From positions 1 to 64,000 of the forward strand of contig CANREF010000003.1 of NCBI GenBank assembly GCA_947629575.1: DNA of 64,000 nt. Reading direction: 5' to 3'. This DNA comes from an uncultured Clostridia bacterium. Its GTDB lineage: Bacteria > Bacillota > Clostridia > Christensenellales > Borkfalkiaceae. The stretch's first letter is position 1. Every line of letters starts with the position of its first letter. A model generated the notes under the pieces. It saw only the letters and a list, made by a program, of their open reading frames with translations. It had not been told where the DNA came from and searched no databases. This document shows, piece after piece, positions 1 to 29,270 of the stretch. Position numbers and translations under genes: made by a program.

Positions 1-422
1 TTGGACAATAAGGCAAAAGTAATTGCCAAATTGTGTCGCCCACGGCGGAAGTGAATTCCGCCTAAGGCAAGTAATTGATATGGTTTCGCACATTTCTTTG
101 CTCGCTCTCTCGGCGCGCCGCTTTGCGGCGCGCCTCGTTCGCTTCGAAAAGAAATGTGCGAGGAAACCTTCCTCCTGCATCAACCGAGTTGGACTCTCAA
201 AATCGCTCAGCTTGGACAATAAGGCAAAAGTAATTGCCAAATTGTGTCGCCCACGGCGGAAGTGAATTCCGCCTAAGGCAAGTAATTGGAAATAGTTTCG
301 CACATTTCTTTGCTCGCTCTCTCGGCGCGCCGCTTTGCGGCGCGCCTCGTTCGCTTCGAAAAGAAATGCGCGAGGAAACCTTCCTCCTGCATCAACCGAG
401 TTGGCTCTCAAAATCGCTTGGC
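1..422 (+). repeat. Family A structured repeat, two tandem copies
   Basis: Two nearly identical units with a 211-bp period (TTGGACAATAAGG recurs at 1, 212 and, diverged, 423). Each unit carries a small hairpin with arms GCAA/TTGC (13-26), a second with arms GGCGGAA/TTCCGCC and loop GTGAA (44-62), and a long hairpin that starts CGCACATTTCTTT and closes with AAAGAAATGTGCG, enclosing a GCGCGCCGC/GCGGCGCGC palindrome (about 88-156). No credible protein is encoded; the apparent open frames are just the repeat read through. The same family recurs at 5541, 15434, 15685, 15986, 28020 and 28998, always in this orientation. Function unknown. Confidence 0.85.
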
Positions 423-500
423 TTGGACAATAAGCCGTAAGAGTGCGGCAAATTGTGTGCGCTTATGGAAAAGCGTGGTTTTCCAACGTGCAGTAATTGG
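423..500 (+). repeat. Family A, partial variant copy
   Basis: This third, truncated unit begins TTGGACAATAAG like the preceding two. Its first hairpin has arms GCCG/CGGC instead of GCAA/TTGC and its second has arms GGAAAA/TTTTCC instead of GGCGGAA/TTCCGCC, so sequence changed while pairing was kept. It ends in CAGTAATTGG and is directly followed by a Family B element. Confidence 0.75.
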
Positions 501-503
501 AGG

Positions 504-591
504 GACACCACCCCCTTGATCCCCCTCCTAAGGAGGGGGCATATGGCTCCTCCTCAGGAGGAGCTGTCACGCAGGTGACTGAGGTGGTGTC
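504..591 (+). repeat. Family B palindromic element (MITE-like, terminator-like)
   Basis: An 88-bp element bounded by perfect 9-bp inverted ends GACACCACC (504-512) and GGTGGTGTC (583-591). It contains nested palindromes CCCCCTCCT/AGGAGGGGG and GCTCCTCCT/AGGAGGAGC, plus GTCAC/GTGAC. The right end runs into a T stretch, so it could act as a rho-independent terminator. Copies or derivatives occur at about 4896, 5718, 6683, 12436, 15463, 29286, 34838 and 58660. From here to the cysK start at 708 nothing else is recognisable. Confidence 0.75.
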
Positions 592-707
592 TTTTTTTGT
601 GTTATCCGAAATAAATATGGCGTCACCCATTCGGCAAGCCCGAAATGAGGCGGCTTACTGCGCACATGCGCAAGTGTGCGGGCATATCATGGAAAAAAGA
701 GGTGACC

Positions 708-1598
708 ATGGTCGTTCGCGATTTATTTCAGGCGGTCGGAAATACCCCCATGCTCGCACTGAGAGAGGGTGACGCGCATATTTTTCTCAAACTCGAATGC
801 TTCAATCCCACAGGGTCGGTGAAGGATCGCGTTGCCAAGGCGATGATCGAGATCGCCGAGAAGCGTCGGTTGCTCCGTCCCGATTCCGTCATCATCGAGC
901 CCACATCGGGAAACATGGGCATCTCCCTTGCCGCCTTTTCCGCTGCGCGGGGATACCGCTGTCTGCTCGTGATGCCCGAGACGATGAGCCTCGAGCGCAG
1001 AAAGCTCCTTGCGGTCTACGGCGCACAGGTGGTGCTTACGCCGGGCGAAGAGGGCATGGCGGGGGCGGTCGCAAAGGCAAGGGAACTTGCCCGCGAATAC
1101 GGGAACAGCTTCCTGCCCATGCAGTTCGAAAATCCCGCCAATCCGCAGGCGCACTACAAGACGACCGCACCCGAGATCGCGGCAGACGTCAAACGGGTGG
1201 ACGCCGTCGTCTGCGGCGTCGGAACGGGGGGAACGCTCACGGGGGTCGCTCGCTATCTCGGCGAATTCTCCCCCGCGCACATCGTTGCGGTAGAACCCGC
1301 TTCTTCCCCCGTGCTCTCGGGCGGGAAGGCGGGAAAGCATGGAATTCAGGGCATAGGCGCGGGCTTCCTTCCCCCCGTGCTCGACCGCTCTCTCATCGGC
1401 GAGATCGTCACGGTGACGGATGATGAAGCCCGCTCCGAGAAGGCGGGGCTTGCCCGCAACTACGGGATCTTTGTCGGATTCTCCTCGGGCGCGGCGCTTG
1501 CGGCGGCAAGGCGGGTCGCTTCCCGCCGGGAAATGAGGGGAAAGAACATCGTCGCCGTTCTTCCCGATTCGGGAGACCGCTATCTTTCTCTCCTCTGA
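708..1598 (+). CDS. cysK: Cysteine synthase (O-acetylserine sulfhydrylase)
   Basis: PLP enzyme of the cysteine synthase family (fold type II), which makes L-cysteine from O-acetylserine and sulfide in the cytoplasm. The 296-residue product has the family landmarks in order: NPTGSVKDR with the PLP lysine at residue 39, [10 protein letters not shown] (substrate loop), [10 protein letters not shown] (phosphate-binding loop), [10 protein letters not shown] and a C-terminal [10 protein letters not shown] chose the ATG at 708 because AGAGGTG lies just before it and the protein then begins MVVRDLF as in the family; an in-frame ATG at 645 would add 21 unrelated residues. It precedes tnaA and cyuA, so sulfur amino acid turnover is the common theme. 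A CBS/CysM-like paralogue cannot be excluded. Confidence 0.93.
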
Positions 1599-1627
1599 AA
1601 AGGACAGACGAAATTTCAAATTGCATA

Positions 1628-1656
1628 TTGACTTTTGCGCCCGGAGCGGATATAAT
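1628..1656 (+). promoter_or_regulatory. Promoter for tnaA
   Basis: TTGACT (1628-1633), 17-bp spacer, TATAAT (1651-1656). The predicted leader to the ATG at 1690 is only about 27 nt, so there is no room for a TnaC-type leader peptide; regulation by tryptophan-induced attenuation as in E. coli is not supported. Confidence 0.8.
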
Positions 1657-1689
1657 GGGAGAAGAAAAAATCCAAGGAGCAACTTTCCC

Positions 1690-3069
1690 ATGAAACCCAT
1701 CTACTATCCAGAACCCTTCCGCATCAAGAGCGTAGAACCGCTCAAAATGCTTACAAGAGCGGAGCGCGAACGCAAGATCGCCGAAGCGGGCTATAACGTC
1801 TTCTCCCTTGCTTCCCGCGATGTGTACATCGACCTTTTGACAGACAGCGGCACGGGCGCCATGAGTTCCGACCAGTGGGCGGGCGTCATGCTCGGCGATG
1901 AGTCCTATGCGGGCGCGGATTGCTACTACAAGGTGCAGGAAAACGCGAAGGAGATCTTCGGATTTGACTATATCCAGCTCGTGCATCAGGGCAGGGCGGC
2001 GGAGAAGGTGCTCCTTCCCATTCTTTTGGAGGGGAAGAAGTACGCAATCGCCAACATGCACTTCGATACGACGCGCGCCCATGTCGAACTTGCGGGCGCA
2101 CGCGCCATCGACTGCACGGTAAAGGAAGCGCTCGATACCACCAAATATTATCCCTTCAAGGGGAACATGGATACGGACAGGCTCGAAGAGCATATCAAAG
2201 AGCTTGGCGCGGAGAACATCGGCGTCATCATCATGACGATCACGAACAACTCCGCAGGCGGGCAGCCCGTATCCGTGGCGAACATCCGCAAGACGAGGGA
2301 CATCGCTCATAAGTACGGCATCAAGTTCATGATCGACGCCGCGCGCTATGCCGAGAATTCCTATTTCGTCAAACAGCGGGAGGAAGAATTCAAGAACAGC
2401 ACCATAGAGGAGATCGTCAAAGCGAGCTTCGAGGGCGCCGACTGCTTCACGATGAGCGCCAAGAAGGACGCGATCGTCAACATGGGCGGGCTCATCGGCT
2501 GCCGCGACAAGGCGGTCTTCGAGCTCGTGAAACAGCGCTGCATCTCGTTCGAGGGATTCATCACCTACGGCGGGATGTCCGGACGGGACATCGAAGCGCT
2601 CGCCCGCGGGCTCAAAGAGGGGATAGACGAACATTATCTGCGCTACCGCATCGGGCAAATGGAATATCTTGCAGCGCGGTTGGACGAGGCGGGCATCGCC
2701 TACCAGAGCCCCGTCGGCGGGCATGCCGTGTTCGTGGACGCGAAAAAGCTCCTTCCCCATATCCCGTACTATGAATTCCCCGCACAGGCGCTTGCGATCG
2801 AGCTCTATCTCGAAGCGGGTATCCGCGCGTGCGATATCGGCTCTTACATGCTCGGCAACGACCCCGACACAGGCAAACAGCTTGAGGCGGACTTCGAATT
2901 CACCCGCCTTGCCATTCCGCGCAGGGTGTATACGCAGTCTCATCTCGACGTCATTGCCGACGCTCTTATCAATATCAAGGAGCGCGCAAGTTCGATCAAG
3001 GGATACAAGATCGTGGAAGAACCGCCGATCCTGCGTCACTTCACCGCAAAACTCAAACCGCTCGGCTGA
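1690..3069 (+). CDS. tnaA: Tryptophanase
   Basis: PLP-dependent beta-eliminating lyase that converts L-tryptophan to indole, pyruvate and ammonia. The 459-residue protein carries the beta-eliminase core [13 protein letters not shown] near residues 40-55, [15 protein letters not shown], the PLP lysine pair in SAKKDA (258-259) and LRHFTAKLK at the C terminus. It resembles tyrosine phenol-lyase at the N terminus ([12 protein letters not shown]). At the position where tyrosine phenol-lyases have a substrate-binding Arg (MERG), it reads CDIGSYMLG with Ile, as tryptophanases do. The start is set by AAGGAG at 1673. It has its own promoter. Substrate assignment is inference from known family residues; tyrosine phenol-lyase is the alternative. 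Confidence 0.88.
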
Positions 3070-3078
3070 GACGAAGGA

Positions 3079-3105
3079 GGCGGACGTTACGGCGTCCGCC
3101 GTTTT
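3079..3105 (+). terminator. Hairpin with short T run between tnaA and cyuA
   Basis: GGCGGACG (3079-3086) and CGTCCGCC (3093-3100) form an 8-bp stem followed by GTTTTC. The only purine-rich ribosome binding site for cyuA, AAGGAGG (about 3074-3080), overlaps the foot of this stem and lies 30 nt from the cyuA ATG. It may be a weak terminator or may modulate cyuA translation. Confidence 0.5.
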
Positions 3106-3110
3106 CTGCC

Positions 3111-4364
3111 ATGAAACTCGAATATACGAAAATCTTAGAGGAAGAACTTCTGCCCGCGCTCGGGTGCACCGAACCCATTGCCGTCGCGTATGCGGCGGCG
3201 CTTGCGCGCAGAGTTTTGGGCAAAATGCCCGACCGTGTGGAGATCTTTGTCAGCGGGAACATCCTGAAGAACGTCAAGAGCGTCATCGTTCCCAATACGG
3301 GCGGACTCAAGGGAGTTGCGGCGGCGGCAATGGCGGGCGCGGTCGCGGGAGATCCCTGCAGGAAGCTCGAGGTGCTCTCTTCCCTCACGGAGGAAGACAG
3401 GGCGCACATCGCGCAGTGCATGAAACAAGTCCCCGTCTCGGTGAAAAAAGCTCCCTCGCGGTGCGTGTTCGACATCGGTGTAAAATTGTTTGCCGTGGAA
3501 GACGAGGCGTTCGTCCGCATCGAGGGGAGGCACACCAACGTCGTGGAAGTCGAAAAGAACGGCGAATGCGCCTTTTCCTGCGCCGAGATCGAGGAAGGGG
3601 GAGAGGGACACGAACTCTCGGTGGCGCAGATCGCAGAGTACGCAAGCACCGTTCCGCTCGAAGAGATCGAGACTGTCATTTCCCGCCAGATCGCGTACAA
3701 TTCCGCCATTTGTGCCGAGGGCATGAGAGGGGATTACGGCGCCCGTGTGGGCAAAATTTTAATGGACGCATACGGAAATTGTGTACATAACCGCGCAAAA
3801 GCGACGGCCGCGGCAGGTTCGGACGCCCGCATGAACGGCTGCTGTTTGCCCGTCGTCATCGTGTCGGGAAGCGGCAATCAGGGCATCACTGCCTGTATGC
3901 CCGTCTGCGTGTATGCGGAGCAGTTGAAAGTTCCGCGGGACAAGCTGCTGCGTGCGGTCGCGCTCGCGGATCTCATCACCCTGCACTTGAAATCGGGCAT
4001 CGGCAGGCTTTCCGCCTACTGCGGCGCGGTGAGCGCGGGCGTCGGTGCGGGCGCGGGGGTGTGCTATCTCCATGGGGGAGATTACGAAGAGATCGCGCAT
4101 ACCGTCGCAAACGCGCTTGCGATCGCCTCGGGGATCTTGTGCGACGGCGCGAAGTCGAGTTGCGCGGCGAAGATCGCTTCGGCGGTGGACGCGGGACTTT
4201 TGGGGTTTGAAATGACCCGCCGCGGCAGCGTATTCTCGGGCGGAGACGGTATTTTGGAACAGAACGTGGAGGAGACGATCGGGAACGTATCGGACGTGGC
4301 GCGCGAAGGGATGCGCTCGACGGACGAGGAGATCATCCGCCTCATGATCAAAAATTTACAATAG
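3111..4364 (+). CDS. cyuA: L-cysteine desulfidase / serine-dehydratase-like (UPF0597, CyuA family)
   Basis: Family of iron-sulfur enzymes that break L-cysteine into sulfide, pyruvate and ammonia. The 417-residue protein shows the family pattern ELLPALGCTEPIAVAYAAA near the N terminus, SGNILKNVKSV, VPNTGGLKG, GRHTNVVEVE, ASDARMNG, GSGNQGITACMPV and the C-terminal LCDGAKSSCAAK; the cysteines in GCTEP and CDGAKSSC are candidate cluster ligands. It lies 41 bp after tnaA. No ribosome binding site lies at normal distance; AAGGAGG sits 30 nt upstream, partly inside a hairpin. Together with cysK and tnaA it suggests cysteine/sulfide cycling in an anaerobe. Specificity for cysteine over serine is inferred. 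Confidence 0.85.
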   Translation: MKLEYTKILEEELLPALGCTEPIAVAYAAALARRVLGKMPDRVEIFVSGNILKNVKSVIVPNTGGLKGVAAAAMAGAVAGDPCRKLEVLSSLTEEDRAHIAQCMKQVPVSVKKAPSRCVFDIGVKLFAVEDEAFVRIEGRHTNVVEVEKNGECAFSCAEIEEGGEGHELSVAQIAEYASTVPLEEIETVISRQIAYNSAICAEGMRGDYGARVGKILMDAYGNCVHNRAKATAAAGSDARMNGCCLPVVIVSGSGNQGITACMPVCVYAEQLKVPRDKLLRAVALADLITLHLKSGIGRLSAYCGAVSAGVGAGAGVCYLHGGDYEEIAHTVANALAIASGILCDGAKSSCAAKIASAVDAGLLGFEMTRRGSVFSGGDGILEQNVEETIGNVSDVAREGMRSTDEEIIRLMIKNLQ

Positions 4365-4379
4365 GAGAAAAGCGGACGG

Positions 4380-4625: not shown

Positions 4626-4635
4626 ATGAAAGAAA

Positions 4636-5147: not shown

Positions 5148-5525
5148 TCAAAAGATATTTTCCACGGCGGGTTTGTAGGTGTCGGGCAGGCACTTCGTCA
5201 AATGGAGCATGATCTCGAGCTTTGCAAGCGCGAGCGAGTAGTTTTTCTCCCCGATGAGGCGCACCGTCTCTGCCATGTAATCGTCTATGCGCGAAATGTC
5301 GTTGTGGGGGATCCACACATGTAATTTTTCCTTGCGGGTCTCCCACGAGGTCTGCACCGCCTTTGCGTCTTCGCCGACGGCGGTTTTTTCATCCGCCTTT
5401 TGATAGAGCGTGGAAAGTTCCTGCCCGAAGGATTCGAATTGGTCGTTCACGAAATACCATTCAAACAGTCCCGCTCCAAGCAGTAGCAGAAACGCTATCC
5501 CGATCGCAGTTAATGATTTGAGCAT
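5148..5525 (-). CDS. DUF4363 family membrane-anchored protein
   Basis: A 125-residue protein with one N-terminal membrane helix (LTAIGIAFLLLLGAGLF) and a helical extracytoplasmic part rich in charged residues ending YKPAVENIF. This matches DUF4363 proteins, which commonly sit directly downstream of DUF421 genes in Firmicutes; function unknown. I chose the ATG at 5525 because the protein then starts just before the membrane helix; the longer frame to 5573 begins inside a Family A repeat. No strong ribosome binding site precedes 5525, so the start is uncertain. The DUF421 gene lies upstream on the same strand, separated by repeats. Confidence 0.7.
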   Translation of the reverse strand: MLKSLTAIGIAFLLLLGAGLFEWYFVNDQFESFGQELSTLYQKADEKTAVGEDAKAVQTSWETRKEKLHVWIPHNDISRIDDYMAETVRLIGEKNYSLALAKLEIMLHLTKCLPDTYKPAVENIF

Positions 5526-5540: not shown

Positions 5541-5717
5541 GAAAAATCTTTCACAAATTTTGTCTTGCGACAAAATTTCGTGAGGGGTTAAGTTGTCTGC
5601 TCCGTAGCGACTATCTACCCGCCCGATAACTGCTTCGTAAAAACGGAAAGCCGTAAGAGTGCGGCAGATTGGGTGCGCTTATGGAAAAGTGTGATTTTCC
5701 AACGCGCAGTAATTGGA
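5541..5717 (+). repeat. Family A structured repeat
   Basis: The copy starts with a different version of the long hairpin (ATTTTGTC/GACAAAAT inside CACGAAA/TTTCGTG). It continues GGGGTTAAGTTGTCTGCTCCG, then hairpins GCCG/CGGC and GGAAAA/TTTTCC, and ends CAGTAATTGG. It separates DUF421 from DUF4363, and the upstream arm touches the DUF4363 start region. Confidence 0.8.
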
Positions 5718-5757
5718 GACACCACCCCCCTTCCCCCCCTCCTGAGGAGGGGGCAGC
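5718..5757 (+). repeat. Family B fragment
   Basis: AGACACCACCCC followed by the palindrome CCCCCCTCCTGAGGAGGGGG, directly after Family A exactly as at 500-540. It ends at the stop codon of the DUF421 gene. Confidence 0.6.
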
Positions 5758-5758
5758 C

Positions 5759-6466
5759 TCACCAAATTTTATGTTCGGGGTAGTTCACTTGCAAGGTCTC
5801 GAATTTCTTGCCCTTCACTTGCAAATAGAGTTTTCCGTTGCCGTCCGCGGTGAGAACGAGCACCCGTTTGACGTTTTGCGCGCCATGTTCCTTCAGTATG
5901 CCGTCGAAAAACTCTCTGTTCAGCCCCGTAAGTTCCAAATTCTTTTCGTCGTAACTGCCGTTGTCGATGATGACGAGGGGCAGCGAATTCTGCATCTGTT
6001 CATAGTCCTGTTTTGGCAGCGCGGAGAACGTTCCATTCGCCTCATAGAGGGCGTAGTCCACGCAGTCGAGGGAGAAATATCCCGCCGAGCGCAGCGACTC
6101 TATGAGGTCGGAAACATCTAAATTATTGCGCTTCAACTGGTAGTCGTCGATGCCGTTTTTATTGACGACGACGGAAGGCTTTCCGCTGATGAAACTCTTC
6201 CAAGGCTTTACTTTGAGGTCGAGCAGGGTCATGATCTCATGTAAAACGTAGATCGTGACGACGGAGATGATCCCATACAAAAGGGGAATGGAAGCGTCCG
6301 CCATGGGGATGCAGGCGAGCTCGGCGATGAGCAGCGTGATGACGAGCTCAAACGGCTGCATCTCACCGATCTGCCGCTTTCCCATGAGACGCATGATGAC
6401 GAGCAGCACGAGGAAGATGATCGCCGTGCGGATCATGACGAGTACCATATTGATAGTTTTGTTCAT
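5759..6466 (-). CDS. DUF421 (YetF-like) membrane protein
   Basis: A 235-residue protein with an N-terminal membrane segment (VLVMIRTAIIFLVLLVIMRLMGKRQIGEM), two further hydrophobic stretches (LVITLLIAELACIP and a helix around YGIISVVTIYVLHEI), then a soluble DUF421 domain with GKPSVVVNKNGI and RNNLDVSDLIESLRSAGYFSLDCVDYALYEANG. These are the family signatures; B. subtilis YetF/YrbG-type proteins are linked to spore or membrane traits, but the activity is unknown. The gene is followed on the same strand by DUF4363, the usual partner, after an intervening repeat. The C terminus abuts Family B. Confidence 0.85.
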   Translation of the reverse strand: MNKTINMVLVMIRTAIIFLVLLVIMRLMGKRQIGEMQPFELVITLLIAELACIPMADASIPLLYGIISVVTIYVLHEIMTLLDLKVKPWKSFISGKPSVVVNKNGIDDYQLKRNNLDVSDLIESLRSAGYFSLDCVDYALYEANGTFSALPKQDYEQMQNSLPLVIIDNGSYDEKNLELTGLNREFFDGILKEHGAQNVKRVLVLTADGNGKLYLQVKGKKFETLQVNYPEHKIW

Positions 6467-6518: not shown

Positions 6519-6524
6519 TCTTTT

Positions 6525-6655
6525 GAAGAGTAGCCAAGGCGCGTTAAGTGTTGCGAAACGGGACGTTGTTCGCAAACGAAAGGGCGGAAGGTCCTGCGGT
6601 GCCGCGGCGCGTCCGCTCGAACGGCGCTCGGTTTCACGTGCGCCTGTTTTTTGCG
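6525..6655 (+). ncRNA. Candidate structured small RNA or long leader
   Basis: The stretch after the promoter has no open frame but folds well by eye: TTGCGAA (about 6553) pairs with TTCGCAA, GCGGA pairs with TCCGC, and GGCGC/GCGCC with a following TGTTTTTT makes a terminator near 6625-6656. I compared it mentally with 6S, SRP, tmRNA, TPP, FMN, preQ1 and yybP-ykoY and saw no convincing match. It could be an independent RNA of about 130 nt or an attenuated leader for the ECF gene. Confidence 0.4.
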
Positions 6656-6852: not shown

Positions 6853-7503
6853 ATGCAGGAAAGGGCAAAACAGCAGAAGAAATGGAAGCGTATCCTCTAT
6901 TCCGACGCCATATTGGGGCTCTCGGACGCAAGGCAGCTCGCCTACATCGGGGTGATGACCGCGCTGTGCATCGCGGTGAACTTTTTCGAGATCAAACTTG
7001 CCGACACGCAGTTCTCCTTCACCGTGTTTGCGAGCATCCTCTCGGGAATCTTGCTCGGCCCTGTCTTCGGCTTTGTGTCCTCATTTTTGGGGGACGCTCT
7101 CGGTTTTTTGGTCAATTCGGGCGGATTTATCTACATGCCGTGGGTGGGGCTCTCGGTCGCCTTCATGGCGTTTTTTGCGGGGCTTTTCATGAAACTCCCC
7201 CTGCGTTTTCGGGGGGGCGTGTACGTAAAACTCGCCCTCGTCTGTCTCGTCTCTCTGCTCGTCTGTTCGGTGGGGATCAACTCGACGGGCTTCTACTTTT
7301 TCTACACACGGGTGGGCTTTTCGGGCAAGGCGCTCTCCCTTTTGCAGGAACACTTCGGCGGGGTCAACCTGTATTGGACGTATGCGCTCGTGCGGCTCGT
7401 GTTCATGGGGCAGCTCCTCAATAACGCCGTGAACTTCGCCCTGCTCTTTGCGATCGTCCCCATTCTGAGAGCGTTGAAGCCGCTCAAACTCAAAATCGAA
7501 TAA
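6853..7503 (+). CDS. ECF transporter S component (vitamin uptake)
   Basis: A 216-residue integral membrane protein with about six hydrophobic segments. The pattern ARQLAYIGVMTALCIAVNFFEI, then FASILSGILLGPVFGFVSSFLGDALGFLVNSGGFIYMPW, matches substrate-specific S components of energy-coupling-factor transporters, closest in feel to the folate/queuosine types. S components bind a vitamin and pair with shared EcfT/EcfA subunits, which are not in the window. The substrate cannot be read from sequence. Start at 6853 with GGAGG at 6841; the site lies in a hairpin, so expression may be regulated. A terminator follows at 7512. Confidence 0.78.
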   Translation: MQERAKQQKKWKRILYSDAILGLSDARQLAYIGVMTALCIAVNFFEIKLADTQFSFTVFASILSGILLGPVFGFVSSFLGDALGFLVNSGGFIYMPWVGLSVAFMAFFAGLFMKLPLRFRGGVYVKLALVCLVSLLVCSVGINSTGFYFFYTRVGFSGKALSLLQEHFGGVNLYWTYALVRLVFMGQLLNNAVNFALLFAIVPILRALKPLKLKIE

Positions 7504-7585: not shown

Positions 7586-8869
7586 ATGACGTCATTACTG
7601 CTTGCCGACGGCCCTCTGTTCGGTGCGAACGAGAGGGGGATCATTCTGTTCGGCTTTGAAATTTATTACTACGCCCTGTGCATTGTGGCGGGCATCATCC
7701 TCGCCACGGGGCTGTCCGTTCTGCTCATGAAGCGGCGGAATCTCTCTTCCGACCTCGTGTTCGTCGGCTTCATCTTCGTCATTCCCGTGGCGCTCATCTG
7801 CGCGCGGCTGTTTTACTGCATTACCGACGGAATGCACATCAAATATTGGTTCGCTTGGAGCAGTATCCGCGAAGGCGGGCTGTCCATTATCGGCGGGCTC
7901 ATCGGGGGCGTTACGACGGCATTTTTGGTCTGCCGCGTCAAGAAAGTGAACTTCCTGCGCGCGGCGGACTGCGTTGTTCCCACCATACTCGTTGCGCAGG
8001 CGCTCGGGCGGTGGGGGAATTTCTTCAACGGGGAAGTGTACGGCGGCGTCGTCACCAATCCCTCGCAGATGTGGTTTCCGTTCGCCGTGCCCATTGCGGG
8101 CGGTTCGGGGCTGAGCGGCTTTTCGAGCCCCAACCCCGAATGGCACTATGCCTTTTTCTTCTATGAGAGCGTGCTCAACCTCATCGGGTTTGCGATCCTC
8201 TTCTCCCTTGCGTGGAAGTGGGACAAGAAGCCCAACGGGCTCTTTCTGTGCGGATATCTCATCTGGTACGGGCTCGTGCGCACGATCATGGAACCGTTGC
8301 GCGCTCCGAAATACATTCTGAGCGGCGGGGGAGTTCCGTGGTCGCTCGTGATGTCCATCCTCATGCTCGTGGGCGGGATCGCGGGCGCAGTCGCCCTGCT
8401 CCTTTGGAACTATCACAAGGAAGATTCCCTCATCGGCAGCCAAAAGGGCGACCCGAGCGGGATCACCGACTATCAGACCCCTTACAAGGACGAGAAGCCC
8501 TACTATTCCAAGATCAACATGAAGGGTGCGGATTACCCCGTAAAACCGCCCGAAGAGAAGCCCTCGCTTTGGAAAAGGCTGTTCCGCAAGGAAGAAGAGG
8601 AAGAGGACGACACCCCCTCTGCCGCCGATGGCGACACCTCCCCCTCAAGGGGGCGGCAAGGTGAGGGTGAGGAGGACGATACCCCTTCTGCCGCCGATGG
8701 CACTGAGGGTTTCGAGGGCGACGCCCCCTCTTACGACGACACCCCTTCTGCCGCCGATGGCACTGAGGGTTTCGATGGCGACGCCCCCTCTGAGGGCGAC
8801 ACCCCCTCTGCCGCCGATGGCGGCACGACCTCAAGGGGGCGGCAAGAGGAAACGGAGGATCAAAAATGA
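7586..8869 (+). CDS. lgt: Prolipoprotein diacylglyceryl transferase with repeat-derived tail
   Basis: Transfers diacylglycerol from phosphatidylglycerol to the lipobox cysteine of prolipoproteins, in the membrane. Residues 1-280 hold the multi-pass Lgt fold with IREGGLSIIGGLIGG, the signature ALGRWGNFFNGEVYG, FFYESVLN and WYGLVRTIMEPLR. The protein is 427 residues against roughly 260-300 usually. The extra C terminus is charged and then built of DTPSAADG units (residues about 340-427) encoded by repeats at 8608-8848. The start follows GAGGT at 7575. It overlaps pncB by 4 bp, and lspA, the next lipoprotein-maturation enzyme, is in the same operon. Confidence 0.93.
   Translation: MTSLLLADGPLFGANERGIILFGFEIYYYALCIVAGIILATGLSVLLMKRRNLSSDLVFVGFIFVIPVALICARLFYCITDGMHIKYWFAWSSIREGGLSIIGGLIGGVTTAFLVCRVKKVNFLRAADCVVPTILVAQALGRWGNFFNGEVYGGVVTNPSQMWFPFAVPIAGGSGLSGFSSPNPEWHYAFFFYESVLNLIGFAILFSLAWKWDKKPNGLFLCGYLIWYGLVRTIMEPLRAPKYILSGGGVPWSLVMSILMLVGGIAGAVALLLWNYHKEDSLIGSQKGDPSGITDYQTPYKDEKPYYSKINMKGADYPVKPPEEKPSLWKRLFRKEEEEEDDTPSAADGDTSPSRGRQGEGEEDDTPSAADGTEGFEGDAPSYDDTPSAADGTEGFDGDAPSEGDTPSAADGGTTSRGRQEETEDQK
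8608..8848 (+). repeat. Repeat array within lgt, Family B-like
   Basis: Four copies of a GACACCCCCTCTGCCGCCGA-like unit (at about 8609, 8679, 8739 and 8799) alternate with GGCACTGAGGGTTTCGA and ACCTCAAGGGGGCGGCAAG units. The wording (ACACCCCCT, CCTCAAGGGGG, GTGAGGGTG) resembles the intergenic Family B repeats. All stay in frame and give DTPSAADG motifs. Confidence 0.75.
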
Positions 8870-12268: not shown

Positions 12269-12435
12269 GCGTCATTCAGAGCGAAGCGAAGAATCCCGAA
12301 GTACAAAGTCCGACGGGGCAATTCTCCGAGGAAATCCTGCAACGTTTAGGCGGTTCAACCAAACGCGAACGTAAATAGATGCTTCGGGGAGAGCATTGTC
12401 GAACTGTGTAGCCACTCACTGGCTCAGCATGACGC
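12269..12435. repeat. Family C MITE-like element
   Basis: 167 bp bounded by GCGTCATTCAGAGC (12269-12282) and GCTCAGCATGACGC (12422-12435), 12 of 14 positions complementary. The interior has GAAGCGAAGAATCCCGAAGT and ATGCTTCGGGGA fragments. It is non-coding and follows the rlu gene directly. Confidence 0.65.
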
Positions 12436-12508
12436 ACACCACCCCCTTAGTCCCCCTCCTGGGGAGGGGGTTTCGCTTCTATCACCTCCAATGGAGGGGG
12501 AAAGGCTA
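12436..12508. repeat. Family B-like element
   Basis: It reads ACACCACCCCCTTAGTCCCC and then a CCCCCTCCTGGGGAGGGGG palindrome, ending ATCACCTCCAATGGAGGGGG. It separates the Family C element from the end of the HTH gene at 12511. Confidence 0.55.
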
Positions 12509-14630: not shown

Positions 14631-15433
14631 TGGGTACGCTTCTTTCTGCCGCGCTCCCTTCCGTCATTTCGAGCGGAGGCGCAGCCGCAGTCGAGAAATC
14701 TCTTTCCTTTTCCCAGCTATGGTATTGGTTTTTGCTCATGGCGGTGGTGTGCTACTTCATCGGCTGTTTCAACTTTGCCGTACTCATCGCCAAGTTCAAA
14801 CATAAGGACGTCCACAAGATCGGGAGCGGGAATCCGGGGACGATGAACATCTCCCGCGAGTTCGGTCTGAAAGTCGGACTTTTGAATTTCCTCCTCGACG
14901 CCTGCAAGGGGGGCGTTCCCGCGATCATCAGCTATTTCGTCTTCCGCAATTATGTCTTTGCGGGTACGAACGTCGTCATTTCCGATTTCACCCGCTATTT
15001 CTGCGGCGTTTGCGTCATCATCGGGCACATTTGGCCCGTCACGATGAAATTCAAGGGCGGAAAGGGCATCGCCTCCACCCTCGGGCTGTTCTGGTTCTGC
15101 ATTTCGTGTGAAAAATGGTGGTACTTCTTCGTAATGGTCGGGCTGCTGCTCGGCGTCGTCGTGGGGTACATCGCCTACACGGAGTGGGGAAGCATGGGAT
15201 CGCTCTTGGGCGTAACGGGATTTTCCATTTGGCAGGGACTGATGTTCTTCTTCCGTTATGAGGCGGAGATCGGCGGAGCGTGGGTCATCGCGTGTTTCAT
15301 GATGCTGTTTGCGCTCAACGCGCTCACTTGGTTCGCGCACAGAAAGAATCTCGTGCGCCTCTTTGCGGGCGAGGAGCACCGCACCTCGGTGAGAAAACTC
15401 TCCCACGGCAAGAGAGGGATGAAAAATATGTGA
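14630..15433 (+). CDS. plsY: Glycerol-3-phosphate acyltransferase PlsY with repeat-derived N terminus
   Basis: Membrane enzyme that moves the acyl group from acyl-phosphate to glycerol 3-phosphate, the first step of phospholipid synthesis. The three PlsY motifs are present: GSGNPGTMN (residues 65-73), KGGKGIAST and a C-terminal HRKNLVRLFAGEEHR. At 267 residues it is about 50 longer than usual. Part of the extra N terminus, roughly residues 12-25 (VISSGGAAAVEKSL), is translated from a Family C repeat. The start is firm: ATG overlaps the der stop, with AAGGAGG 7 nt upstream. The first membrane helix starts near residue 31; an internal ATG at 14738 would remove the repeat but also part of that helix. 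Confidence 0.93.
   Translation: MGTLLSAALPSVISSGGAAAVEKSLSFSQLWYWFLLMAVVCYFIGCFNFAVLIAKFKHKDVHKIGSGNPGTMNISREFGLKVGLLNFLLDACKGGVPAIISYFVFRNYVFAGTNVVISDFTRYFCGVCVIIGHIWPVTMKFKGGKGIASTLGLFWFCISCEKWWYFFVMVGLLLGVVVGYIAYTEWGSMGSLLGVTGFSIWQGLMFFFRYEAEIGGAWVIACFMMLFALNALTWFAHRKNLVRLFAGEEHRTSVRKLSHGKRGMKNM
14663..14702 (+). repeat. Family C repeat inside plsY
   Basis: Begins GTCATTTCGAGCGGAGGCGC and continues to GTCGAGAAATCTC at 14702. The left GTCATTTCG and right TCGAGAAATCTC match the ends of the intergenic copy at 15731-15825. It is read in frame as part of PlsY. Confidence 0.75.
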
Positions 15434-15684
15434 AAGGTTTCGCACATTTCTTTGCTCACTTTCCCCCTTGCCCACCCCTTGAGGGGTGGGTGTCACGCGC
15501 AAAGCGCGTGACGGAAGGGGTGTCGTTCGAAAAGAAATGTGCGAGGGGTTAAGTTGTCTGCTCCGTAGTCACTATCTGCCCGCCCGACAACTGCTCCGTA
15601 AAAACAATAAGCCGTAAGAGTGCGGCAAATTGTGTGCGCTTATGGAAAAGTGTGATTTTCCAACGCGCAGTAATTTGGAAAGGG
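15434..15684 (+). repeat. Family A copy with Family B nested in its hairpin
   Basis: Long-hairpin arms CGCACATTTCTTT (15441) and AAAGAAATGTGCG (about 15531-15543) enclose a Family B-like element (15463-15524: CCACCCCTTGAGGGGTGG, GTCACGCGC/GCGCGTGAC, AAGGGGTGTC). The tail follows: AGTTGTC pairs perfectly with GACAACT, then hairpins GCCG/CGGC and GGAAAA/TTTTCC. It starts at the plsY stop codon. Confidence 0.85.
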
Positions 15685-15985
15685 TTTCGCACATTTCTTT
15701 TCTCTGTGCTATGTGCAAAACGCTCTAATTGTCATTTCGCCCCGCGCGCAGTTCTGATTCTCTAAGCGCGGCACGAGCCCGCAGGGCGAAGTAGCGGAGC
15801 GCGAAGCGCGTAGTCGAGAAATCTCACAATAGAAAAGAAATGTGCGAGGGGTTAAGTTGTCTGCTCCGCAGTCACTATCTGCCCGCCCGATAACTGCTTC
15901 GTAAAAACGAAAAGCCGTAAGAGTGCGGCAAATTGTGTGCGCTTATGGAAAAGTGTGATTTTCCAACGCGCAGTAATTTGGAAAT
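15685..15985 (+). repeat. Family A copy with Family C nested in its hairpin
   Basis: Arms CGCACATTTCTTTT (15688) and AAAAGAAATGTGCG (about 15834-15847) enclose a Family C element (15731-15825, GTCATTTCGCCCCG to TAGTCGAGAAATCTC). The Family A tail follows, with AGTTGTC/GATAACT pairing through a G-U wobble. It is adjacent to the previous copy, a tandem arrangement. Confidence 0.85.
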
Positions 15986-16080
15986 GGTTTCGCGGAAAAT
16001 CTTTTGCTGACGCAAAATCTTTTCCGCGAGGAAACTTACCTGAATGCTTTAACTTACTTATCCTCTCATTCGTTTCAAAG
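15986..16080 (+). repeat. Family A hairpin, alternate arms
   Basis: The long hairpin here is GCGGAAAATCTTTTG-CTGA-CGCAAAATCTTTTCCGC, different in sequence from CGCACATTTC but still paired. It ends GAGGAAACTTACCTGAATGC and then CTCTCATTCGTTTCA, as in the 28020 copy. The stretch to 16139 holds nothing recognisable. Confidence 0.75.
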
Positions 16081-16139
16081 GATAACATGGTCTGCCATAG
16101 AAGTCATTTTTTGCACCCGTTTGCAATAATCATAAAAAT

Positions 16140-19437: not shown

Positions 19438-19515
19438 GTGTCGTTATTCGTTAAAACAAAACCCGCTCTACCCGAATGGGTGGAGCGGGTTTTGGTCGAG
19501 GCGACGGGATTTGCG
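19438..19515 (-). pseudogene. tRNA-Pro 3' fragment with terminator (duplicated)
   Basis: On the minus strand this matches the 3' end of the intact tRNA-Pro and its terminator. CGAGGCGACGGGATTTG at 19498-19514 equals 19694-19710, and the hairpin ACCCGCTC...GAGCGGGT parallels AATCCGCCCC...GGGGCGGATT. The two share TCGTTATTCGT(T/C)AAAACAAAA, giving a direct duplication with an offset of about 199 bp. The rest of the tRNA is replaced by unrelated sequence. Confidence 0.7.
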
Positions 19516-19656
19516 CCTTTGGCGGCGCGCCCCGGTTGACAATTATCAATTGTCAAGTTTGCGGCAAACTTATCCGAATCCCAGCAATTCGCCCGCAAAC
19601 CGATTGCTCCCGCAATCGCCTCCACCCTCAAATCCCGTCGTTATTCGTCAAAACAA
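19516..19656. other. Spacer between duplicated tRNA 3' regions
   Basis: Non-coding. It contains the palindrome TTGACAATTATCAATTGTCAA (19537-19557, arms TTGACAATT/AATTGTCAA) and then sequence resembling neither Family A, B nor C. Confidence 0.4.
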
Positions 19657-19692
19657 AATCCGCCCCACCCGAATGGGTGGGGCGGATTTTGG
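19657..19692 (-). terminator. Terminator of tRNA-Pro
   Basis: Read on the minus strand, AAAATCCGCCCCACCC pairs with GGGTGGGGCGGATTTT around the loop ATTC, right after the encoded CCA end. Confidence 0.7.
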
Positions 19693-19766
19693 TCGAGGCG
19701 ACGGGATTTGAACCCACGACCTCTTGGTCCCGAACCAAGCGCGCTACCAAACTGCGCTACGCCTCG
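19690..19766 (-). tRNA. tRNA-Pro (anticodon CGG)
   Basis: On the minus strand the gene reads CGAGGCGTAGCGCAGTTTGG, then the D arm end, anticodon arm CTTGG-TTCGGGA-CCAAG (anticodon CGG, reading CCG), the T arm GTGGGTTCAAATCCCG, and the acceptor CGCCTCG closing with A and an encoded CCA. All four stems pair. 77 nt including CCA. It is transcribed from a promoter at 19955-19983 through a broken upstream copy. Confidence 0.95.
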
Positions 19767-24678: not shown

Positions 24679-25809
24679 ATGAAGAAGATATTGCCTATAT
24701 CCGCTCTGATCGGCGCTCTGCTGCTTGCGGGCGGTCTCACGGGCTGCGGGAGCTGCGGAGACGGAACGCACACACACGACTTTACCGAATGGGAGATCGA
24801 AAAGGTACAGACCTGTCTTGAAGACGGTCTGCGCAGCCGTACCTGTCGGGATTGCGGCGAAACCGAAAAGGAAGTCCTCAAGGCGCGCGGCTATCACGTA
24901 TACCAACCGTGGACGAATTGGTGCAGAGACTGCGGATACGGGATCGATGATCCCACTCCCGGGTTGAGTTACGAGCCCATCGACGGCAGCGAAAATTACA
25001 TGGTGAGCCTCGGCAGTTGTACCGCAACGAATATCGTCGTTCCCGCCTACTATATGGATCATCCCGTTGTTGCCGTACGGGAAGAGGGCTTTGCCAATCC
25101 CGACGGAGTGACTACAAACGGCGGAAACCTCAGAAGTATCTGGCTGCCCGACGGTATCGTCTCCATCGGCGAGCGCGCCTTTTACGGCTGTGGGAAACTC
25201 AGCTTGGTCGTTCTGCCGAACACGCTGGAGCGCGTCGAAAACAATGCGTTCAGCGGCTGCACTTCCCTCGAACATGTGGGCACGCTTTCCGGATGGGATC
25301 GCGCTCCCTTGAAGCTCACTTCCATCGGGGACAGCGCATTCAACAACTGCACCAAGCTCGTCGCCGCTCCCCTTGGGGATGCGCTTGAGGAAGTGGGTGC
25401 GTTCGCCTTCCGTAATTGCGCGGCGCTCACCACCGCCAACCTCGACGCAAATGTCAAAACGGTAGGGGAATACGCGTTCAGCGGCTGCGAGAAAGTCCGC
25501 TACGCCATGATCGGCGGACAAATGGAGACGCTCGCCAACTCTGTCTTTTTCGGCTGTTCTTCGCTCACAGAAGTCGTCGTTCCCTATCGGTTCAAATATT
25601 TCGGCTCGGGCTCTTTCGGGAATTGCCCGTCGCTAAAGACCTTCCGCTTTCCGGGCACAAAGGCGGAATGGAAGGCAAATGTCACCCATGCCGACGACTG
25701 GTTCATCGGGGAATACGGCGACGAAGAACTTCCCACCTTCTATATCGAATGCGCGGACGGTTATCTCAACCAATACAATGTCGAGACCGCTCCGCCTGCG
25801 CAACAATAA
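24679..25809 (+). CDS. Lipoprotein with BspA-like leucine-rich repeats
   Basis: A 376-residue surface lipoprotein. The signal peptide ends in the lipobox LTGC (Cys 23). A cysteine-rich segment follows ([21 protein letters not shown], about residues 52-72), similar to a short domain often repeated in clostridial surface proteins. Then come about six LRR_5 units of the type [47 protein letters not shown] and [12 protein letters not shown]. BspA-type repeats often mediate adhesion, but the ligand is unknown. Monocistronic with its own promoter and terminator. Confidence 0.85.
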
Positions 25810-25814
25810 CGGCA

Positions 25815-25843
25815 AAACACGGAGCGTCCGCTCCGTGTTTCCT
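25815..25843 (+). terminator. Terminator after LRR lipoprotein
   Basis: AAACACGGAGC (25815-25825), loop GTCC, GCTCCGTGTTT (25830-25840), a perfect 11-bp stem. Confidence 0.85.
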
Positions 25844-25940
25844 TATGCCGCGCGCACGGCTCTTCTTCGCGGCGTCTCTCTGTTCTTACCAAAAACACGA
25901 TACTCCAAACCTACCCGCAGCATATAATAAGGAGAGAACT

Positions 25941-28019
25941 ATGGACATAACGGAATTGTTCGGAAGCAATGTCTTCGGCGACGAGGTGATGAAAAATTCC
26001 CTGCCGAAGGAGGTCTATAAGTCCCTGAAGAGGACGATCGACGAGGGCGCGCCGCTCGATTCGAACATCGCGAGCGCCGTCGCCAACGCCATGAAGGACT
26101 GGGCGGTGAAGAAGGGCGCTACCCATTACACCCACTGGTTTCAGCCCCTCACCAACCTCACGGCGGAAAAGCACGACAGCTTTATCGAACCCGACGGGGA
26201 TAAAGTCATCATGCAGCTCACGGGCAAGAGCCTCATCGTGGGCGAGCCCGACGCCTCTTCCTTCCCTTCGGGCGGCTCGCGGGCGACTTCCGCGGCGCGC
26301 GGCTACACCGCATGGGACCCCACTTCCCCCGCCTTTGTAAAGGAGGGAACGCTCTACATACCGACCGTGTTCGTCTCCTATACGGGCGAGACGCTCGATA
26401 AAAAAGCGCCCCTTCTCAAGTCCATGACAGCTCTCGACACGCAGGCGAAGAGACTATTGAAGCTCTTCGGGATAGAGTGCAGGAAGGTCTCCACCACGGT
26501 GGGGCCCGAGCAGGAATATTTCCTCATCGACGAGGAGGAGTACCTGAAACGCAAGGACCTCATCCTCACGGGCAGGACGCTGTTCGGCGCACCCCCTTCG
26601 CGCGGGCAGGAACTCGAAGATCACTACTTCGGCGTTTTGAAGACCCGTATTTCGGAATTCATGCGCGATCTCGATGAGACGCTCTGGAGCTACGGCATCT
26701 TCGCCAAGACGAAACACAACGAGGTCGCTCCCGCCCAGCACGAGCTCGCCCCCGTGTTCACCACGACGAATGTCGCCGTCGACGCCAACCAGCTCACCAT
26801 GGAGCTCATGAAGAAGGTCGCAAAGCGCCACGGGCTCGTCTGCCTGCTGCACGAAAAGCCCTTCGAGGGGGTGAACGGCTCGGGCAAACATAACAATTGG
26901 TCTCTCTCCACCGATACGGGGCTCAATCTTCTCGACCCCGGTGAAAATCCCGAGAGCAATCCCCGCTTCATGCTCGTGCTCGCCTGCGTCATCGCGGCGG
27001 TAGACCGCTATCAGGGGATCTTGCGCGCTTCCATTGCCTCCGCGGGGAACGATCACCGCTTGGGCGCGAACGAAGCCCCGCCCGCCATTATCTCCGTCTA
27101 CCTCGGCGATCAGCTCGGCGCACTCGTCGATTCCATTGTGAACGGCAGGGCGTATGTGCCCAAGAAGGCAGTGCCGGGGTCTATCGGCGTGCCCTCGTCG
27201 CCCATCTTCCCCATCGACACAACGGACAGAAACCGCACCTCGCCCTTCGCCTTTACGGGCAATAAGTTCGAATTCAGGATGCTCGGTTCGCAGGCGTCCG
27301 TTGCAGATCCCAACATCGTGCTCAATACGATCGCCGCAGAGCTCTTTTCCGAGGCGGTGGACGCTCTCTCCGGTGCGGAAGATTTCGGGAGAGTGTGCAG
27401 AGAATACACCGGATCCCTCCTCAAAAAACACTACCGTATCATCTTTAATTACAACGGGTACGGTCCGGACTGGGAACCCGAGGCGGAGAGAAGGGGACTT
27501 CTCGCCAACAAGACGACGGCAGACGCCGTGCCCGAGTTCTTCAAACGGGAGAATATCGATGTGTTCGTGAGGCAGGGGGTTTACACCGAGCGCGAAGTGG
27601 TGGCGCGGGCGAATATCCAGCTCGAAAATTATATCAAGTGTATCAATATCGAGGCGCTCACCATGGTGGAGATGGCGCGGCAGGACATCTATCCCGCGGT
27701 GAACGGGTACATCGCCGAGCTGTGCGCGGTGATCCAAAATAAGCGCGCAGTGAGCGAAAAACTGCAAACGGGTGCAGATCTGAAGCTCGCGGAGCGCCTT
27801 TCCGCCATGAATGACGCATTCTATGCGGCGATCGAAAAGCTCGAAGGCGATTTGAAGGAGATGCCCGCGGGCGAGAGCCCCGCTTCGCAGAAGATGGCGC
27901 ACGTCATCGTTCCCGATATGGACGCCGCCCGCCGTCTTGCCGACAGCATGGAAAAGCTCTGCTCCTCCGACTATTGGCCCTATCCCACTTATACCGATCT
28001 TTTGTATAGCGTGAAATAA
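25941..28019 (+). CDS. glnN: Glutamine synthetase type III
   Basis: Makes glutamine from glutamate, ammonia and ATP; GSIII forms are large and common in anaerobes. The 692-residue length fits GSIII rather than the about 450 residues of GSI. Motifs include the GSIII N terminus ([24 protein letters not shown]), [59 protein letters not shown] and [18 protein letters not shown]. Start at 25941 with AAGGAG at 25929. A TATAAT lies at 25923-25928 without a clear -35 box. The stop codon is directly followed by a Family A repeat. Confidence 0.96.
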
Positions 28020-28430
28020 TTTCGCACATTTAGTTTCGCACATTTCTTTGCTTGTTCTCTCAGCGCGCCGCGAAAGCGGCGCGCCTCGTTCACTGCGCAA
28101 AGAAATGTGCGAGGAAACCTTCCTCTATGCCTTAACCCTTTTGTCCTCTTGTTCGTTTCATCGGACAACAAGGCAAAAGTAATTGCCAAATTGAGTCGCC
28201 CTACTTCGCCCTGCGGGCTCGTGCCGCCCTTGGACATGAAAGAATGCGGGCGGGGCGGCGGAAGTGAATTCCGCCTAAGGCAAGTAATTGAGAATGGTTT
28301 CGCACATTTCTTTGCTCGCTCTCTCGGTGCGCCGCGAAAGCGGCGCGCTTCGTTCACTGCGCAAAGAAATGTGCGAAGAAACCTTCCTCCTGCATCAATA
28401 AGATATTCCTCTCATTCGCTTAGCTTAAAT
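28020..28430 (+). repeat. Family A, two copies
   Basis: The first copy begins at the glnN stop codon: long-hairpin arms CGCACATTTCTTTG / CAAAGAAATGTGCG (28041-28110) around CGCGCCGC-GAAA-GCGGCGCG, then CATCGGACAACAAGGCAAAAG, the GCAA/TTGC hairpin, a roughly 60-bp insertion (CTTCGCCCTGCGGGCTCGTG and following), GGCGGAA/TTCCGCC and GGCAAGTAATTG. A second long hairpin (28299-28375) follows, ending AAACCTTCCTCCTGCATCAA. The insertion shows that the loop region tolerates extra sequence. Confidence 0.8.
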
Positions 28431-28469
28431 AATAAGACACATAAACTCGGCGCAGAGAAAAGTCCCTTG

Positions 28470-28497
28470 CAAATTGCAGAGGGCTTTTGTTTTTTCC
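28470..28497 (+). terminator. Terminator-like hairpin before dut promoter
   Basis: AGTCCCT (from 28470) pairs imperfectly with AGAGGGCT (about 28479-28486) and is followed by TTTGTTTTTT. Confidence 0.45.
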
Positions 28498-28540
28498 TTG
28501 ACAAATGGCTTGGATTTCATTATGATATAAAGGAATCCAA
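28498..28540 (+). promoter_or_regulatory. dut promoter with inverted repeat around the -10 box
   Basis: TTGACA (28498-28503), 17-bp spacer, TATGAT (28521-28526). TTGGATT (28510-28516) and AATCCAA (28534-28540) are perfect inverted copies on either side of the -10 box, suggesting a repressor site. The leader is short. Confidence 0.65.
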
Positions 28541-28568
28541 AACTTCGTTCGCGCCCGATGGGGGATCT

Positions 28569-28997
28569 ATGAAAGTAAATATTAAAAAATTGAACGAAAG
28601 GGCAAAACTTCCCACCTATGGCTCTCAAAATGCCGCGGGTGCGGATCTCTATTCCTGCGAAGACTATACTGTGGAAGCGGGGGAAACGGTGTTCGTGCAC
28701 ACGGGAATCGCCATAGAGCTGCCCGCGGGTACGGTGGGGCTCGTGTATGCAAGGAGCGGGTTCGCCTGCAAAAAGGACCTCGCCCCCGCCAATAAAGTGG
28801 GTGTAATCGACTGCGACTATCGAGGGGAGATCATGGTCGCCATTCACAATCACGGAAAAGAGACGCGCACGATCGGGGAAGGGGAACGGATCGCCCAGCT
28901 CGTGGTGACGTCCTATTACACTTGCGAATTTGCGGAAGCGGAGGAGCTTTCCGATACCGTCCGCGGCGAAGGCGGATTTGGATCGACGGGGAGATAG
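28569..28997 (+). CDS. dut: dUTP diphosphatase
   Basis: Hydrolyses dUTP to dUMP and pyrophosphate, keeping uracil out of DNA. The 142-residue product fits the trimeric dUTPase family, with AGADLYS, ARSGFACKKD (catalytic Ser loop), NKVGVIDCDYRGEIMVAIHNHG (the Asp/Tyr substrate loop), ERIAQLVV and the C-terminal RGEGGFGSTGR. I chose the ATG at 28569, 36 nt after the promoter; the weak GGGGAT just upstream is the only ribosome binding site. The much longer frame upstream is repeat sequence. Family A begins at its stop codon. Confidence 0.93.
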   Translation: MKVNIKKLNERAKLPTYGSQNAAGADLYSCEDYTVEAGETVFVHTGIAIELPAGTVGLVYARSGFACKKDLAPANKVGVIDCDYRGEIMVAIHNHGKETRTIGEGERIAQLVVTSYYTCEFAEAEELSDTVRGEGGFGSTGR

Positions 28998-29270
28998 GGT
29001 TTCGCGGAAAATCTTTTGCTGCGCAAAATCTTTTCCACGAGGGGTTAAGTTGTCTGCTCCGCAGTTACTATCTACCCGTCCGATAACTGCTTCGTAAAAA
29101 CGAAAAGCGCGAAGTGTCGCGCAAATTGAGTGGAGTGGCGCAATTCTGTTCAACAGCGCGGGGCGCTGTGAACTGCGCCACGACAGGCGCGGTGGCCTCC
29201 GCGCCGTGCTTTGCGGCGGTCCCTGCCGCCCAAAGCGCAGCGCAAAATGGCGATTTTGCTCGCGGAAAGA
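28998..29270 (+). repeat. Family A, divergent copy
   Basis: The hairpin GCGGAAAATCTTTTG-CTG-CGCAAAATCTTTTCC (29003-29036) is followed by GGGGTTAAGTTGTCTGCTCCG, GATAACTGCTTCGTAAAAAC and a small hairpin with arms GCGCG/CGCGC (GCGCGAAGTGTCGCGC, 29106-29121), a third arm sequence at the same place. Then longer hairpins TGGCGCA/TGCGCCA enclosing GTTCA-CAGCGC/GCGCTG-TGAAC (29133-29180). The stretch to 29285 contains GC-rich sequence without a gene. Confidence 0.7.

Follow-up and report, generated by a model that had tools for sequence, protein, structure and literature searches.

A clade-restricted, foldable repeat placed just after stop codons in Borkfalkiaceae, probably a non-autonomous mobile element

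HEARO elements and the omega RNA of IscB represent structured, RNA-like mobile DNA that is present in many copies. For the repetitive extragenic palindromic (REP) sequences of Escherichia coli, a study cited by PMC12306157 proposed that 260 of 496 are involved in translational regulation, and in the available portion of PMC12306157 itself, 446 of 4,072 are placed within 15 nt of a stop codon. BOX elements, as described in the accessible part of PMC3049150, have been tied to an insertion sequence through terminal repeats and may stabilise transcripts as 3' additions. Here, we analyse a 64,000-nt stretch of DNA (the window; bases 1-64000 of contig 3) from the 1.87-Mb, 38-contig genome of an uncultured Clostridia bacterium of the family Borkfalkiaceae, labelled G000 below, and focus on a dispersed hairpin repeat that an earlier note on this DNA had reported at nine places. 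We propose that this repeat is probably a high-copy, non-autonomous intergenic element of Borkfalkiaceae, which is mobilised in trans and works like REP sequences and bacterial interspersed mosaic elements (BIMEs) or like BOX, and not like REPs paired with a RAYT transposase.

Read from 5' to 3', one unit consists of hairpin A, slot B, hairpin C, the linker AAATTG, hairpin D and a tail of approximately GTAATTTGGAA. Hairpin A is long, opens with TTCAC or TTTCGC, closes with GTGAGG or GCGAGG and often carries other repeats in its loop; slot B occurs in two main forms (B1 and B2), hairpin C has a six-base loop of the ARGNNT type, and the stem of hairpin D is in two parts. Units adjoin directly, head to tail, with a period of roughly 160-360 nt, and the fixed hairpin order proposed in the earlier note is borne out as A-B-C-D. 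The slots are mixed: B1 and B2 are each found with C=GCCG and with C=GCGCG, and both of these C forms with several D forms, while C=GGCAA is paired only with B2 and mostly with D=GGCGG (28 of 32). In other genomes the order of C, CAAATTG linker and D is preserved, and other records show a larger, different middle part (P2, P3) ahead of the same C-D core. The linker does not vary in any of the 93 aligned cores, although the search motif itself contained it. It is very improbable that unrelated palindromes, not forming one element, have piled up in the same spacers: other repeat families do share these spacers and nest inside A and D, but the fixed order, the head-to-tail units and the C-linker-D order across genomes contradict such a view.

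Two further observations concern the unit ends. In arrays of G000, the four bases preceding an internal hairpin A are mostly ATGG or ATAG (22 of 43), a preference that is weaker at gene junctions; they may belong to the tail or to a signal for insertion. At loci L077, L081, L092, L105 and L111, all of Borkfalkia type, two units stand tail to tail and can occupy the entire spacer, also between co-directional genes, which suggests a composite with hairpin A at both ends.

A covariance model of hairpins C and D (the core), built on 93 sequences, was run over the full genome and over relatives, a check that had been suggested in the earlier note, and it returned matches in both. At a threshold of E<=0.01, at least 141 cores were found in G000 among 150 scored candidates; this number is a lower bound, because 150 out of 612 first-look candidates were scored. 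A blastn search with one unit gave 53 matches in the same genome, and the repeat is more abundant than first noted. Simple pattern rules placed and classified 122 of the 141 cores and left 19 unplaced. By DNA search, the element is present in 12 of 41 genomes (own included), all of the same genus. The wider model scans used strict filters and scored at most 39 (family), 31 (order) and 19 (class) candidates per genome. At E<=1e-6, matches occurred in 32 of 121 family genomes (own included) from 4 of 18 genera, with 1 to 39 matches per positive genome. The order scan was positive in 12 of 151 genomes, of which five lie outside the family and have one weak match each (E 2.8e-5 to 7.4e-4), which we take as chance, and the class scan in 3 of 245 (own included), all three in the family. 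Strong matches were confined to one family, Borkfalkiaceae, among the genomes scanned. Among the 80 matches listed from an exact-pattern scan, 59 came from records titled Clostridia, Firmicutes or Candidatus Borkfalkia, a group in which the core was seen on reading the sequences, and 21 from other taxa. Over the whole window, Rfam 15 returned only a tRNA and a tetrahydrofolate (THF) riboswitch above the gathering score and no match to the repeat; over 15380-16110 at E<=5 it gave two microRNA matches far below thresholds and nothing useful. No account of the element was found in the literature on Borkfalkia repeats, related noncoding RNA, REP, BOX, miniature inverted-repeat transposable elements (MITEs) and HEARO, a survey whose coverage mostly excluded subscription journals and preprints.

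The sharp placement of the element relative to stop codons is its surprising part. The 141 cores of G000 group into 93 arrays (53 of one unit, 33 of two, 6 of three and 1 of four; 40 with 2-4 units), and no called gene spans any of them. On the upstream side, the neighbouring gene is on the same strand in 68 arrays, on the opposite strand in 22 and off the fetched stretch in three, and between co-directional genes 54 arrays are sense and 18 antisense. A recognisable hairpin A start is present in 63 of the 68 sense arrays; 62 of these begin 0-8 nt after the stop codon and one at 34 nt, and the other five show no recognisable A start in the examined stretch. The 3' end serves as an internal control: of 65 sense arrays that have a called downstream gene, 1 has its last core within 30 nt of it. 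Antisense arrays, judged by eye, often start just past the ribosome-binding site of the opposite gene. In independent records (76 loci fetched from the pattern scan, with 145 cores in 117 arrays: 71 sense, 25 antisense and 21 without an upstream gene in the locus), 51 of the 71 sense arrays begin at most 10 nt after a stop.

This placement bears on an explanation in which the repeat is a cis-acting structured RNA, namely a 3'-untranslated region (3'-UTR) module selected by the host for control of mRNA stability or translation termination, with spread by gene conversion and duplication being incidental. We regard it as unlikely. The sense bias between co-directional genes, the closeness of hairpin A to the stop codon (at most 8 nt in 62 of 63) and the same stop bias in independent records speak for it, as do stop-proximal REPs, which according to the available text of PMC12306157 affect translation in E. 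coli. Nevertheless, 22 of the 90 arrays with an upstream neighbour are antisense to it, and 89 of 121 family genomes gave no match at the strict filters and cut-off of the family scan.

Comparison of orthologous gene junctions provides evidence for insertion. Of 30 loci fetched for hslV-hslU, 18 were parsable: in 10 of these the genes overlap or are separated by no more than 12 nt, two have spacers of 83 and 100 nt without recognised repeats, and three contain other repeats (>800 nt). In the remaining three (genomes G246, G018 and G011), an element or solo hairpin A starts 1-5 nt past the stop codon, and the three differ in type:
G246: an A-B-C-D unit.
G018: a solo hairpin A.
G011: an A-P2-P3-C-D unit.
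At the dUTPase-trmB junction (18 loci, 20 genomes asked), nine spacers measure at most 3 nt, G002 has 23 nt and G094 has 124 nt without the element; G009 carries other repeats, G007 and G024 show an A-like start followed by other repeats, and recognisable element parts are present in G000, G006, G008 and G020. At the glnA-dUTPase junction, which was compared by eye, the element of G000 and G006 is preceded by the stop codon and followed by a terminator-like hairpin, its T run and a promoter-like stretch. A part copy is present in G024, other repeats in G007 and G008, and a plain terminator near the stop in G004, G005, G002 and G015; several genomes have another upstream neighbour gene. Presence and absence at orthologous sites are thus seen at all three junctions. 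The element appears to insert, because gene pairs with an overlap or almost no spacer in many relatives have it between them in others, and on sequence comparison the three junctions appear to reflect insertion followed by turnover of content. Such variable content among relatives is unlike a conserved regulator and weighs against the host-selected 3'-UTR module. The solo hairpin A of G018 (locus L278; TTCACACTTTTTCTTTC...GAAAGAAAAAGTGTGAA, without B, C and D) is a separate observation; hairpin A may move alone.

The fold of the core was assessed in two sets. The alignment started from 240 candidate cores, of which 185 were distinct; filtering on flanks left 165, and removing redundancy at 90% left 99. 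Six more rows were omitted manually, one being a false positive from the window and five having a long or replaced D, which gave the final 93. To qualify, a candidate had to include AAATTG, form hairpin C without mismatches (counting G.T but not C.A as a pair) and reach a D fold below -9 kcal/mol. In these 93 cores, 95.0% of 1359 cells are paired, compared with 77.0% when shuffled and at most 50.3% with partners slid, and 14 of 15 core pairs vary on both sides, in rows that were partly chosen for hairpin C. Changes on both sides were counted in 205 cells versus 48.5, and further pair types showed no excess (27 versus 25.1 shuffled). The pairing figures, the helix-C counts and the invariant linker of this set are inflated, because its rows were selected for a perfect C and a stable D. 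The second set comprises 94 exact-pattern matches that were not filtered for folding (30 of them from loci with no title listed). Here, the 5' arm GCCG occurs in 70 of 94 versus 0 of 21 in the other-taxon records (one of them Christensenellaceae), and each of the four inner D pairs is present in 80-89 of the 94 and shows 26-38 double changes; the RNAalifold consensus of the same matches was poor.

The earlier note had put forward R-scape as a check on covariation. We ran an R-scape-like test of our own in which 100 nulls were generated by redistributing substitutions over the branches of a tree (FastTree, Fitch); of 2850 column pairs, 8 reached E<0.05, and seven of the eight agree with helices C and inner D: four are modelled pairs (8-15, 37-55, 38-53 and 40-51), three are extensions of the inner D helix (44-48, 36-56 and 34-57), and the eighth, 42-50, is an offset neighbour. 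Taken singly, no pair of the basal D stem reached this level, nor did three of the inner D pairs or four of the five in hairpin C. Covariation in hairpin C and inner D is beyond shared ancestry, as the earlier note had supposed for the hairpins. Its claim of covariation in a middle stem (AGTTGTC/GATAACT), which belongs to slot B, did not hold: in 58 parsed units this stem is 85.2% paired compared with 85.1% for shuffled partners, with 242 of 500 shuffles as high as observed, and its wobble pair provides no evidence, because the pairing equals that of shuffled partners.

Covariation of the core would also be expected of a host-selected 3'-UTR module and counts in its favour. However, hairpin C is still 94.8% paired in 23 antisense cores versus 99.8% in 93 sense cores (model-found). 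The closing pair of hairpin C is T.G in 22 and C.A in 3 of the fold-unfiltered matches, which suggests that the element strand is likely the folding strand. In model-found cores of G000 the ratio of T.G to C.A is 46:0 in 465 sense pairs and 10:2 in 115 antisense pairs, under a model that favours T.G.

Within the window, every one of the nine reported places is a copy or part copy of the repeat, arranged as follows.
1..506 (+): three-unit array at the contig start; cores 9-83, 220-294 (C=GGCAA, D=GGCGG), 431-506 (C=GCCG, D=GGAAAA); spacers with hairpin A (TTTCGCACATTTCTTT...AAAGAAATGTGCGA) at 84-161 and from 296, and also B2.
500..598 (+): slot E after this array, a long GC-rich hairpin GACACCACC...GGTGGTGTC with a T run next to it, terminator-like.
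5541..5722 (+): single unit; A 5550-5584 (TTCACAAATTTTGTC...GACAAAATTTCGTGAG), B1 from 5582, core 5647-5722; antisense to both neighbouring called genes (5148-5525 and 5759-6466, minus strand).
15434..15986 (+): two-unit array directly 3' of the stop codon of a glycerol-3-phosphate acyltransferase gene (ends 15433); unit 1 with A 15438-15544, B1 from 15543 and core 15608-15683; unit 2 with A 15685-15847 (nested repeat inside), B1 from 15846 and core 15911-15986.
15987..16095 (+): part copy, reported at 15986; A from 15988 (TTTCGCGGAAAATC...TTTTCCGCGAGGAAA) and a B2 remnant, without core.
28020..28296 (+): unit beginning at the stop codon of a type III glutamine synthetase gene (ends 28019); short partial A, then A 28034-28112, B2 and core 28169-28296, with about 55 nt of a different repeat nested in D (28201-28257).
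28297..28437 (+): second hairpin A (28298-28376) and a B2-like part, without core; 3' of it a terminator-like hairpin with a T run, a promoter-like stretch and then the dUTPase gene.
28998..29156 (+): unit directly after the dUTPase stop codon (ends 28997); A from 29000, B1 from 29039, core 29104-29156 with C=GCGCG and a longer hairpin GGAGTGGCGCAATTC... in the D slot.

The model-scored cores in the window start at 9, 220, 431, 5647, 15608, 15911, 28169 and 29104. The arm variants listed in the earlier note were recovered for the first small hairpin (GGCAA/TTGCC, GCCG/CGGC and GCGCG/CGCGC), the second hairpin (GGAAAA/TTTTCC and GGCGGAA/TTCCGCC) and the long hairpin (CGCACATTTCTTT, CGCGGAAAATC and CACGAAA). 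Window matches to the repeat motifs are not due to chance: AGGGGTTAAGTTGTCTGCTCCG has 4 matches at up to 3 mismatches against an expected mean of 0.00, and GTTTCGCACATTTCTTT has 13 against 0.25 expected. The short core pattern by itself, with 18 window matches versus 13.8 by chance, does no better than chance.

Other repeats accompany the element. A second family consists of GC-rich hairpins, e.g., GACACCACCCCC...GGTGGTGTC, some with a T run (500-598, 12431-12470 and 29335-29360); these terminator-like hairpins come after the element tail, in slot E. Another repeat (CGCCCCGCGCGCAGTTCTG..., in inverted orientation, 82% complementary) lies in hairpin A of one copy (15738-15794) and in hairpin D of another (28201-28257), and this nesting indicates that repeats insert into repeats. 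In relatives (loci L243, L244, L245 and L052), a further repeat, GTCATTTCGAGC...GTCGAGAAATCTC or close variants, occupies the same kind of junction, including sites of the stop-codon element of G000. Apart from these repeats, the window contains the THF riboswitch at 6524-6620, upstream of a called gene (6853-7503); a duplicated 74-nt stretch, 92% identical (19440-19513 and 19637-19710), with a CCCGAATGGGT-type palindrome, which overlaps the end of a tRNA (19693-19766, minus strand); and several imperfect copies of short coding repeats at 8603-8826, near the 3' end of gene 7586-8869.

The following mechanism could account for these features. A putative recombinase acting in trans would recognise the folded element strand, as single-stranded DNA or, less likely, as an RNA copy, and copies would be inserted just 3' of stop codons, where neither the upstream gene nor the next ribosome-binding site would be damaged. 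After transcription, the hairpins would lie in the 3'-UTR and, by analogy with REP and BOX, could shield the upstream message from 3' exonucleases. Hairpins less than 15 nt from the stop may, in addition, slow terminating ribosomes, like E. coli REPs as reported in the accessible part of PMC12306157. It is also conceivable, but quite improbable, that insertion is aimed at stop codons via the transcribed and translated message. The sense fold would then act as RNA, in the manner of a short interspersed nuclear element (SINE), with an RNA intermediate and a host or other enzyme; the target would be, for example, mRNA exposed or cleaved by a ribosome at termination. The placement makes the matter testable, with a gene-end bias caused by selection sparing only those sites on one side and aimed insertion on the other, and related genomes already offer the same operon junctions both with and without an insert.

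With respect to the mobiliser, hairpins that are of high copy number, intergenic, clustered and near stop codons resemble REPs as described in the available text of PMC2817692 and PMC12306157, and movement of REP/BIME-type repeats by a RAYT or another Y1 (HUH) transposase would be a candidate. We consider it hardly credible. The Y1 transposase domain (PF01797), the RAYT/TnpA-type partner sought by the earlier note, had no match in the 12 genomes that carry the element by DNA search; several of the genomes searched are incomplete. It is present in 6 of 31 genus genomes, and none of the five of these that were DNA-searched gave an element match. Moreover, GTAG/GTGG was counted ahead of hairpin A only, where none of 43 copies inside arrays and 3 of 61 at gene junctions have it. 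The flanks of three IS200-like Y1 genes in genus members (L060, L061 and L062) were inspected by eye; they look like ordinary IS200-type ends with other hairpins, not those of the element. RAYT/IS200 was rejected as mobiliser on the absence of Y1 matches in the 12 genomes and the ordinary look of the flanks. Of the alternative in the earlier note, a structured RNA or mobile element, the covarying fold and the insertion stand, while the covariation of the slot B middle stem and the RAYT/TnpA partner do not.

Several points weigh against a non-autonomous element mobilised in trans. In addition to the Y1 result, reverse transcriptase (PF00078) was found in 5 of 16 genomes with no match in G000; the Y1 and reverse transcriptase searches, with other enzyme families unsearched, found no mobiliser. 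Comparing the junctions by eye yielded neither a definable target-site duplication nor a sharp 3' end. An element simply tolerated between genes would be expected to show a weaker stop-codon bias and a smaller sense excess than the 54:18 seen, which favours some role in the 3'-UTR. Genes were called by a home-made codon-usage caller, and among filtered or model-found copies the way they were selected accounts for part of the fold and of the G.T over C.A excess. A crude scan found a terminator downstream in 7 of 65 sense arrays, and because of this result the arrangement of an array upstream of a terminator rests on one locus. Around the one copy found in G246, inspected for a neighbouring transposase, the open reading frames (ORFs) listed read by eye as housekeeping genes (including HslV and HslU), with no family search on them.

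In comparison with known systems, the repeat differs from HEARO and omega RNA in having no Rfam match, and no associated ORF was noticed in the loci read. As for MITEs, outlined in the background given in the available part of PMC3049150, hairpin A resembles their paired terminal inverted repeats around variable cargo, and a solo A is known from G018; however, B-C-D lies outside hairpin A, and no target-site duplication or parent insertion sequence was found, the parent not having been searched for systematically. The BOX elements of Streptococcus pneumoniae (boxA-boxB-boxC), as described in the same available text, are similar, by description only, in being modular, foldable as RNA, intergenic and suggested to be non-autonomous mobile elements (PMC3049150). 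In contrast to BOX, hairpin variants are here mixed per slot, the 5' end abuts stop codons and no insertion-sequence partner is known. Like REPs and BIMEs, which the available portion of PMC12306157 presents as high-copy hairpins between genes, clustered and often shortly 3' of stop codons, the element consists of clustered, high-copy extragenic hairpins, with 141 cores of 150 scored in 93 arrays. Unlike a REP of 20-40 nt, its unit recurs every ~160-360 nt with four ordered hairpins, and unlike REP/RAYT systems it seldom has a GTAG/GTGG head before hairpin A, gives no Y1 match in 12 element-bearing genomes, forms head-to-tail arrays (G000) and shows a sharper stop bias. Because it works like REP/BIME or BOX and yet departs from REP/RAYT, we file it among the small interspersed mobile repeats, and the few interspersed elements described in bacteria thereby gain one that is clade-restricted, foldable and combinatorial.

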